Positions 9,882-17,611 of a stretch of 33,259 nt of DNA are shown one piece after another. Every line of letters starts with the position of its first letter. The stretch's first letter is position 1. Location: contig CALUTK010000019.1 in assembly GCA_944323675.1 (NCBI GenBank), positions 1 to 33,259 on the forward strand, in the 5' to 3' direction. A program made the translations under genes and the position numbers. The notes under the pieces were generated by a model. It saw only the letters and a list, made by a program, of their open reading frames with translations, did not search any database and had not been told where the DNA came from. This stretch comes from Candidatus Gastranaerophilales bacterium (GTDB taxonomy: Bacteria; Cyanobacteriota; Vampirovibrionia; Gastranaerophilales; Gastranaerophilaceae).

Positions 9882-10181
9882 TTAAAATAATAAACTGTAA
9901 TCTTGATATTCAGATAAAACTCTTAAAATATAGATTTTATCATCAGCAACACAGTAGACAATGCTATATCCCCATTTAATGGTGAAGAACAGCACGTCCT
10001 CATCAGTGTATTCTGGTCTTTTCTTACCCATTTTAGGATATTGCGACAAATAAATAAAAATTTTCTTTAAAGTTTTTGCAAACTCATAAGCAGCTTGTTT
10101 GTTATCTGTTTCAATGTAAGCGACAATTCCGTTAATATCAGTCTGAGCTTGTTCGGTTGTTATGACAGTCAAATTATTCAT
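9882..10181 (-). CDS. parE: RelE/ParE-family toxin
   Basis: This 99-aa protein has the ParE layout: an N-terminal helix with TEQAQTDINGIVAYI, a central helix (AYEFAKTLKKIFIYLSQYPKMGKKRPEY), then strands FTIKWGYSIVYCV and KIYILRVLSEYQDY. ParE toxins poison DNA gyrase and RelE relatives cleave mRNA on the ribosome; the target here cannot be read from sequence. It is the second gene of a two-gene operon, its start overlapping the antitoxin stop by 8 bp, which suggests coupled translation. No own promoter is visible. It is full length for the family. Confidence 0.85.
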   Translation of the reverse strand: MNNLTVITTEQAQTDINGIVAYIETDNKQAAYEFAKTLKKIFIYLSQYPKMGKKRPEYTDEDVLFFTIKWGYSIVYCVADDKIYILRVLSEYQDYSLLF

Positions 10182-10422
10182 ATTTTGCTATTAAATCATC
10201 CATAAAATTTAAACCGTCATGAATTCTACCGGCAGCAACATCATTAAGTCCCTTTTTTATCTCAGCATTAATGCTGGCTTTACGATTTTTAGCCATAGAG
10301 GTTTGTAAAATCAATATACTAATATTTGCGTTAATGGCTTCACTTAGCGATTTATATATTCCGGCTGAAATCTGGTTTTGTAAAAAATTTTTAACATCCG
10401 GAGATAACGAAATATTATCCAT
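10174..10422 (-). CDS. parD: ParD-type antitoxin
   Basis: An 82-aa protein whose N-terminal half (ISLSPDVKNFLQNQISAGIYKSLSEAINANISIL) has the ribbon-helix-helix form of ParD antitoxins, which bind their own promoter. The C-terminal part (INAEIKKGLNDVAAGRIHDG) matches the toxin-binding tail of this group. A GGAGTT ribosome site precedes the ATG, and a near-perfect promoter lies about 33 bp upstream. The antitoxin-first order and 8-bp overlap with the toxin gene are typical of type II systems. The pair lies next to a tRNA-Arg gene, a common place for acquired DNA, but no integrase is present. Confidence 0.85.
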   Translation of the reverse strand: MDNISLSPDVKNFLQNQISAGIYKSLSEAINANISILILQTSMAKNRKASINAEIKKGLNDVAAGRIHDGLNFMDDLIAKYE

Positions 10423-15527: not shown

Positions 15528-15850
15528 ATTATATTACAAATAAAAATTTCGGTTTCTTAATTGCAAAAATTTTCTATAGCAATAAATTATTATTCCCTTC
15601 GTGCATAGGGATTTATATCGCAGTTTACACCAGATGAACAAAAGTGTCATGCTGAATTTATTTCAGCATCTCTATGCTGTTAGACCCTGAAACAAGTTCA
15701 TAGCCTGCCCTGAATTTATTTCAGGGGTGACATTTCTGAGTTTTTTAGTGTAAACTGCGATATAAGGCCCTATTATTATTCCCTTCGCACATGAATATTT
15801 AATCTCTCTCTTGTTTATGGTAACATTTAACCACAGGAGAGAAAAAGATT
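15528..15850. other. Intergenic region upstream of argS, mostly a MITE-like inverted-repeat element
   Basis: The left side holds the -10 of mgtE (TATAAT, 15528-15533, minus strand). From 15586 to 15792 it is occupied by the direct-repeat-flanked element described separately. The right side holds the argS leader with AGGAGAG at 15835-15841. No gene is visible. Confidence 0.7.
15607..15771. mobile_element. 165-bp MITE-like element with terminal inverted repeats, built of palindromic-repeat copies
   Basis: Ends are 24-bp inverted repeats with two mismatches (15607-15630 and 15748-15771), of which 18 bp are perfect (15613-15630 and 15748-15765). The element is flanked by direct repeats: ATTATTATTCCCTTCG is identical at 15586-15601 and 15772-15787, and the match extends to 21 bp with two mismatches (15586-15606 and 15772-15792). 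Inside are three degenerate copies of a palindrome: 15645-15671 in plus orientation, 15682-15700 inverted and truncated, and 15705-15732 inverted. The same palindrome occurs inside argS. No ORF is inside, so it would be non-autonomous if mobile. Mobility is inference from the architecture. Confidence 0.6.
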
Positions 15851-17611
15851 ATGATAAAAGATTATTTTTTAAATCAGATAGAAACAGCAGTTGAAAAAGC
15901 GATTAGTGATAATAAACTCGGCGGAATGACAGAGTACAAAAGAGGAACACTCTTGACAGAACGCCCTAAAAATGCAGATTTTGGCGATTTTGCAATTAAT
16001 GTATCATCTCTTGCAAGATTTGCTAAAATGGCGCCGCCTGTGATTGCTAGTACTATCCTTGAATATGTTGATAAAGACGATAACGATTACTCTGTTGTTG
16101 CAGGATTTATTAATTTTAAAACAGGGAAAAAATTACTTGTAAATTCAATAAAAGAAATCTTTGAAAAGGATAAAAATTACGGGAAACCTGAAAACGTCAA
16201 AACCGAAAAAATTATACTTGAATACGTTTCTGCAAATCCGACAGGCCCTTTCCATATAGGTCACGGACGCTGGGCAGCTATGGGATCAGTCCTTGCCAAC
16301 CTTTTAAAATTTTACGGTCATGAAGTTTATCAGGAATTCTACATTAATGACGCGGGTTCTCAGATTACAAAACTCGGTAACTCTCTTGCAATCCGTGTCC
16401 GCCAGCAGTTAGGCGAAGATATTGATTTTCCGGAAGATGAAATTGAAAGAAAAAATTACTACCCGGGAGATTACTTAATTCCGACAGCCGAAAAATTTAT
16501 CAATGATATTCCTACATGTCATCCTGAACTTGTTTCAGGATCTCAACTAACACTTGAAGATGCTAAAAAAATTGATGTCAAAATATTCTCAGACTTTGCA
16601 AAAGCTGAAATGGAACGTCTCCAAAGAGAGTTGCTTGAAAGCTTCCGTGTTCATTTTGACAACTTCTATTCTGAATTAACACTCCATAAATCCGGCAAAG
16701 TTGATGAATGCGTAAATAAGCTTAAAGACAGCGGGAAAATTTATAAAAAAGACGGAGCCGACTGGTTTAAATCATCAGATTACGGAGATGATCAGGACAG
16801 GGTAATCAAAAAAGCCGACGGCTCAAACACCTATCTCACGGCAGATATCGCATACCACATTGATAAACTAGAACGCGGCTTTGACAGAATGATAAACATC
16901 TGGGGCGCTGACCACCACGGTTATGTAGCAAGGGTAAAAGCATCAATTGAGGCGCTCGGATATGACCCTAATAAACTTGAAATTCTCTTAGGACAGCTTG
17001 TTAACCTTGTGATTAACGGGAACGAAGTCCGTATGGGCAAGCGTAAAAATATGGTAACCCTTGACGATTTGATTGAAGAAGTCGGAGTTGATGCAACCCG
17101 CTTCTGGATGTCAATGAGAAATATTGATACAACTCTTGATTTTGATATTGAACTTGCAAAAACAAACAGCGACGAAAACCCTGTATTCTACGTTCAATAT
17201 GCGCACGCAAGAGCCTGCTCAATTTTAAGAAACGCTGTTGAAGAAAAATTAAATACAGAAACAGGAGAAAAAACTCCTGCTCCGTTAACAAAAGCAGAAC
17301 TTGACGAAATCGTGAACAATTATTCTGCAAAAACTATTTTACCGACACTTGATACTGCTAAAAAGTTAATTCTCAAACTTGAAGAATACAAGTCTATGAT
17401 AAAAACTTCGGCAGAAACAAGACAGGTTTACACAATCTGCAGATATGTCCAGGAACTTGCTGCGGAATTTCATTCCTTCTACAACGCAAACCGCGTAATC
17501 TCTGATGATAAAGAAATGATGAAAGCCCGTTTAGCACTCGTTGTAGCGGTTAAGAAAGTTTTGAATAACGCACTTGATATTCTTGCAGTCACCGCACCTG
17601 AGAGAATGTAA
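15851..17611 (+). CDS. argS: Arginyl-tRNA synthetase with an in-frame palindromic-repeat insertion
   Basis: ArgS charges tRNA-Arg with arginine. At 586 aa it has the N-terminal tRNA-recognition domain (about 1-105), the class I core with NPTGPFHIGHGRW (HIGH at 135-138), the DAGSQ stretch, TADIAYHIDK and WGADHHGY, and the VRMGKRKNMVTLDDL segment, which stands where other class I enzymes have KMSKS. The C-terminal helical anticodon domain ends in NALDILAVTAPERM, as is typical. Residues 223-231 (CHPELVSGS) are encoded by a palindromic repeat, lie in the stretch between GDYLI and the DFAKAEMERLQ helix, and look foreign to the family. The frame is intact, so the enzyme is presumably active. The ribosome site AGGAGAG lies 9 nt upstream. 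A bidirectional terminator follows. Two tRNA-Arg genes lie 3.8-5.2 kb away, but not in the same transcript. Confidence 0.96.
   Translation: MIKDYFLNQIETAVEKAISDNKLGGMTEYKRGTLLTERPKNADFGDFAINVSSLARFAKMAPPVIASTILEYVDKDDNDYSVVAGFINFKTGKKLLVNSIKEIFEKDKNYGKPENVKTEKIILEYVSANPTGPFHIGHGRWAAMGSVLANLLKFYGHEVYQEFYINDAGSQITKLGNSLAIRVRQQLGEDIDFPEDEIERKNYYPGDYLIPTAEKFINDIPTCHPELVSGSQLTLEDAKKIDVKIFSDFAKAEMERLQRELLESFRVHFDNFYSELTLHKSGKVDECVNKLKDSGKIYKKDGADWFKSSDYGDDQDRVIKKADGSNTYLTADIAYHIDKLERGFDRMINIWGADHHGYVARVKASIEALGYDPNKLEILLGQLVNLVINGNEVRMGKRKNMVTLDDLIEEVGVDATRFWMSMRNIDTTLDFDIELAKTNSDENPVFYVQYAHARACSILRNAVEEKLNTETGEKTPAPLTKAELDEIVNNYSAKTILPTLDTAKKLILKLEEYKSMIKTSAETRQVYTICRYVQELAAEFHSFYNANRVISDDKEMMKARLALVVAVKKVLNNALDILAVTAPERM
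16517..16543 (+). repeat. 27-bp palindromic repeat inserted in frame in argS (encodes CHPELVSGS)
   Basis: The hairpin arms are ATCCTGAA (16520-16527) and TTCAGGAT (16534-16541), flanked by TGTC and CT. Length is exactly 9 codons. It matches the copy at 15645-15671 at 23 of 27 positions; one pair of the four differences is a G-C to C-G swap within the stem. The codons match residues 223-231 of ArgS. Confidence 0.8.

Follow-up and report, generated by a model that had tools for sequence, protein, structure and literature searches.

Short non-autonomous elements of Gastranaerophilales often inserted at a fixed distance upstream of predicted promoters

Results

An inverted-repeat unit framed by direct repeats lies upstream of argS

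The window, that is the whole stretch of DNA analysed here (33,259 nucleotides, contig CALUTK010000019.1 of assembly GCA_944323675.1, genome G000), contains in its mgtE-argS spacer a 165-bp unit (15607–15771) that starts with AGGG, ends with CCCT and is bordered on both sides by a direct repeat. The following features were assigned in this region.

15586–15606, plus strand: left copy of the 21-bp direct repeat
15607–15630, plus strand: left terminal inverted repeat (TIR), 24 bp by the count of the first-pass annotation, inner 18 bp perfect
15608–15770, no strand: MITE by the family boundary GGG...CCC, 163 bp; the family 8-bp duplication abuts GGG and CCC
15652–15666, no strand: internal CTGAATTTATTTCAG palindrome, copy 1
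15710–15724, no strand: internal CTGAATTTATTTCAG palindrome, copy 2
15748–15771, minus strand: right TIR, 24 bp, inner 18 bp perfect
15772–15792, plus strand: right copy of the 21-bp direct repeat, 2 mismatches to the left copy
15798–15826, plus strand: candidate argS promoter TTTAAT-17-TAACAT, read by eye; its -10 region is conserved in the related genome G006

The first-pass annotation had described a 165-bp unit with 24-bp TIRs and direct repeats of 16 or 21 bp, and these numbers were right when checked on the window sequence. The direct repeat reads ATTATTATTCCCTTCG(TG/CA)CAT, with bases 1–16 identical and two mismatches over 21. When the 1.81-Mb genome was scanned with the two differing positions left free, two exact matches were found, both of them here, and the next best match had 3 mismatches. 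One extra base (A on the left, T on the right) separates the 163-bp element from each direct repeat. At 0–2 mismatches, the TIR core is present in the window at the two element ends only. The unit has no coding capacity and no Rfam match. Its predicted RNA fold is strong (z = -9.95 against dinucleotide shuffles) and places a hairpin 80 bp upstream of the argS start. Elsewhere in the window (9882–10422), a pair of short neighbouring genes on the minus strand resembles, by eye, a toxin-antitoxin system of the RelE/ParE type.

The unit belongs to a dispersed family with 8-bp target-site duplications

A BLAST search with a 207-base query gave 62 matches to the element in G000, the best sister copy being 98% identical across 174 bases. 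A 17-base TIR core was searched with up to 3 mismatches: 60 TIR-like ends (27 + 33) were found in G000 against 3 (1 + 2) for the reversed control pattern, and other Gastranaerophilales carriers were found among the relatives. The conserved family TIR is 23 bp long, GGGAYTTATATCGCAGTTTACAC. Copies mostly measure 104–336 bp and have strongly variable, hairpin-rich interiors; clustering left 40 end types. One variant of the right end, GGGAATTATATACAAGTTTACACC, is found repeatedly (L150:1501-1796 and similar ends), which suggests asymmetric TIR subfamilies. Many interiors hold CTGAA...TTCAG-like or CCGAA...TTCGG-like hairpins. A palindrome of the same kind, CTGAACTTGTTTCAG, encodes an in-frame CHPELVSGS within argS (16517–16543), where the aligned G006 ArgS has LAPCGRGNEG.

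In contigs representing one genome per species, the exact core occurred in at least 106 stretches, mostly from Gastranaerophilales among the matches listed; given 257 billion bases, chance alone should yield single matches to a 17-mer TIR end in unrelated phyla. Exact cores were present in 4 of 60 genomes of the family Gastranaerophilaceae, a patchy distribution. The element had no match in plasmid and phage collections, the exact TIR core was absent from IMG/VR, and a literature search for the core sequences of TIR and hairpin found no paper. Strong TIR ends numbered just six in the 1.79 Mb of G006 covered, compared with about 60 ends in G000, suggesting amplification in the lineage of the window.

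The family duplicates 8 bp directly outside GGG...CCC. Over 76 copies, a count that includes orthologous sites unfiltered, the mean identity of these duplications was 0.81, and at least 7 of the 8 bases matched in 52 copies. Identity dropped to about 0.2–0.5 when the flanks were read out of step, while registers that slide both flanks together stayed high as they overlap the same repeat.

Comparison with G006 revealed insertion polymorphism. At the G000 copy C9:3292, G006 has a near-clean empty site with a single copy of the target; as read from the alignment, this site already has a promoter (TTGATT-17-TAAAAT) without the element. Another copy is common to both species (G000 C62:7650-7816, G006 C2:259364-259526) and is 99.4% identical between them, compared with about 87–89% for the 800-bp flanks. 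The nearest flanks of this shared copy are also highly conserved, and by eye it seems to occupy the loop of what resembles a terminator hairpin. At C2:32557, the copy in G000 is short and its counterpart in G006, beside the same neighbour genes, is the 1128-bp version, representing one insertion or two. The mgtE-argS spacer of G006 is shorter and contains neither the element nor either direct repeat. As the spacers have diverged between the two genomes, the comparison shows that the orthologous locus lacks the element and does not amount to a clean empty site. The observation that the first-pass annotation had named as refuting an insertion, one structure kept in every argS leader, does not hold, as G006 lacks it.

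Half of the insertions are in register with a predicted promoter

A pooled first count over 182 flanks of 91 copies placed the best promoter at offset 12 in 42 flanks, against about 1 for mononucleotide-shuffled flanks. The promoter model was an E. coli-type consensus, and the promoters are predictions, not mapped transcription starts. Orthologous sites were then collapsed to 76 elements, and an insertion was called in register when a flank had a promoter score of at least 6 at offset 11–13. In 38 of the 76 non-orthologous insertions, a sigma70-type promoter was found with its -35 box starting 12 (±1) bp outside the element; this is a stricter recount of the pooled data and no independent replication, the offset and threshold having been fixed after the pooled count and most copies being common to both. 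The promoter lay on the left in 21 cases and on the right in 19, including 2 with both. The other half of the copies had no scoring promoter in register.

The peak was narrow. Among the 152 flanks, 30 promoters were at offset 12, 7 at 11 and 4 at 13, and offsets beyond 14 mostly had 0–1; in three-base windows, offsets 0–9 gave 2–7 promoters and offsets from 15 on 0–3. The threshold-free count of TTG gave the same peak: 34 flanks had it at offset 12, and at most positions about 3 did. G000 alone had 12 of 42 flanks in register. In this geometry, the 12 bp correspond to the 8-bp duplication plus 4 bp. Where copies could be oriented, 15 had TTG at offset 11–12 only on the right and 6 only on the left, a weak right-side preference.

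The copy in the window, upstream of argS, is atypical. Its flanks show neither an 8-bp duplication nor a promoter at offset 12, and it is the sole copy with a long repeat among 78 pairs, again counted with orthologous sites included, the other 77 all having 12 bp or less. The candidate argS promoter is weak and was not listed among the consensus promoter matches; its -35 box starts 27 bp from the element edge and is therefore out of the family register. The distance from the right direct repeat to this TTTAAT is 5 bp, and that from the family duplication to the -35 box is 4 bp, a likeness that is suggestive only.

No transposase was found in the genomes searched

As annotated at first, the window contains no transposase. 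The profiles tried detected none in the whole of G000 either, nor in another seven genomes. Six profiles were used (IS1595, ISL3, IS256, DDE_Tnp_1, ISLre2/UPF0236 and ISKra4) and gave no credible match in the carrier genomes searched. The IS1595 and ISL3 profiles matched nothing in six genomes, and IS256 and DDE_Tnp_1 (IS4/IS5-type) nothing in seven; each of the four matched at least one control genome. The ISLre2/UPF0236 profile had no match in 8 genomes, and its controls were equally silent. With the ISKra4 profile, 383 genomes of the order gave one weak sub-threshold match, which we read as a fragment of an unrelated transposase; G000, G006 and G055 were listed without a match.

The first-pass annotation had also suggested a transposase gene between the same ends. 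No such gene or autonomous parent was found in the draft assemblies searched, and no recurring open reading frame (ORF) was found beside unpaired TIRs; an autonomous copy could be missing because draft assemblies break at repeats. Three longer TIR pairs were considered as parents and rejected. The 1848-bp element L055:3336-5183 has a perfect 8-bp duplication (AAATCGTG), and its ORFs (269 and 96 aa) contain no recognisable transposase domain: neither has a Pfam match, nor has the 269-aa ORF an NCBIfam match. The 1128-bp element L240:4293-5420 (G006 C1:504293-505420) has a 294-aa ORF that extends into the right TIR, likewise lacks a recognisable transposase domain and gave only a weak PHROG match (ADP-ribosyltransferase family, E = 0.0083). 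Visual inspection suggested that the third pair, in L135 and 727 bp long, is spurious. Four groups of G006 repeats longer than 400 bp (1.79 Mb) were inspected and contained no recognisable transposase: one had a long open frame of unknown function, one a pilin-like gene and two no long ORF.

Discussion

The copies are short and non-coding, have TIRs, are dispersed and flanked by target-site duplications, and differ in presence between genomes. These are the properties of a MITE, and the initial reading as a non-autonomous mobile element is borne out by the dispersed copies, the 8-bp duplications, the empty site of another copy in a relative and the lack of coding capacity. We are confident that the window feature is one copy of a Gastranaerophilales MITE family that inserts in promoter register in about half of its copies. 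That the structure is instead a conserved regulatory leader of argS could be argued from the strong predicted hairpin so close to the gene; this idea is contradicted by the many copies of the sequence elsewhere in the genome, by the lack of an Rfam match at this place and by the absence of the structure from the syntenic G006 mgtE-argS locus, and is almost certainly wrong. The long direct repeat, initially taken as the target-site duplication although its length was remarked on, is not the normal product of a family that makes 8 bp. Most likely it would be a one-off, abnormally long duplication from the window insertion. The 8-bp norm, under which a 21-bp repeat needs another source, and the two differences between its copies would also fit a pre-existing tandem pair at whose junction the element landed, its own 8-bp duplication being lost or never left. 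This would require insertion almost exactly at the junction, and the repeat occurs neither in the G006 spacer nor elsewhere in the genome; we consider it rather unlikely. Given the two differences between the copies, an artefact of k-mer assembly also seems unlikely.

For the register itself, selection is a conceivable cause, since surviving insertions alone are visible and those elsewhere may disrupt promoters and be lost. With a width of one to three bases, the peak is far narrower than survival would demand, and a peak of essentially one base is hardly explained by selection against harmful insertions alone; we regard this account as very improbable. It is quite possible, if somewhat short of an even chance, that the family is an unrecognised p-MULT 3/4 (ISLre2/ISKra4-like) branch whose transposase the profiles missed. 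The 8-bp duplications, the length of the inverted repeats, their terminal G/C and the insertion upstream of promoters fit the description of these groups (PMC3942029), as do promoters on either side, reported for near-perfect inverted repeats; the spacing of 12 and the ISKra4 search of the order speak against it, and the UPF0236 search was negative with silent controls. We infer that a DDE-type transposase acting in trans would move the MITE copies. It would cut at two positions upstream of the -35 box, 4 and 12 bp away, because it recognises either the promoter DNA or RNA polymerase bound there, a mechanism proposed for TnGBS/ISLre2. It is possible, though less likely than not, that this enzyme is an undescribed one, seated on the RNA polymerase-promoter complex and with a geometry unlike p-MULT 3/4, in a lineage where no conventional parent was detected.

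The 76 non-orthologous insertions provide a second promoter spacing, which could help in finding the responsible enzyme and in testing RNA polymerase itself as the target. The insertions may also help to locate promoters in uncultured Gastranaerophilales.

Among known systems, MITEAba12 of Acinetobacter is likewise a small non-autonomous TIR element with many copies across genomes, 9-bp duplications and AT-rich targets; it differs in that its parent ISAba12 is coresident and in that no target sequence trend was reported (PMC6382973). The transposases of IS256 (p-MULT 1), ISL3, IS1595 and IS4/IS5-type elements were not found in the genomes searched. Promoter position has been described as read by just two bacterial transposase lineages (PMC3942029). 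TnGBS/ISLre2 elements (p-MULT 3) insert 15–17 bp upstream of the -35 box of sigmaA promoters, with a peak at 16 from the right inverted repeat, and some ISKra4 elements insert upstream of promoters at 15–17 bp (PMC3942029). The present family resembles ISLre2/TnGBS in its 8-bp duplications (8–9 bp there), 23-bp TIRs (inverted repeats of 18–39 bp there) and fixed promoter-upstream distance (PMC3942029). It differs in its peak at offset 12 and in insertion on either side where theirs is mostly one-sided; their UPF0236 transposase was not found here in a search with silent controls. With the ISKra4 group of p-MULT 4, a set of elements reported from several phyla including Cyanobacteria, it shares near-perfect inverted repeats, predicted promoters on either side and duplications of 8–9 bp (PMC3942029); no copy bearing a transposase is known for the Gastranaerophilales TIRs. 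Judged by the descriptions of TnGBS/ISLre2 and ISKra4, the 12-bp spacing appears to set the Gastranaerophilales family apart from both.
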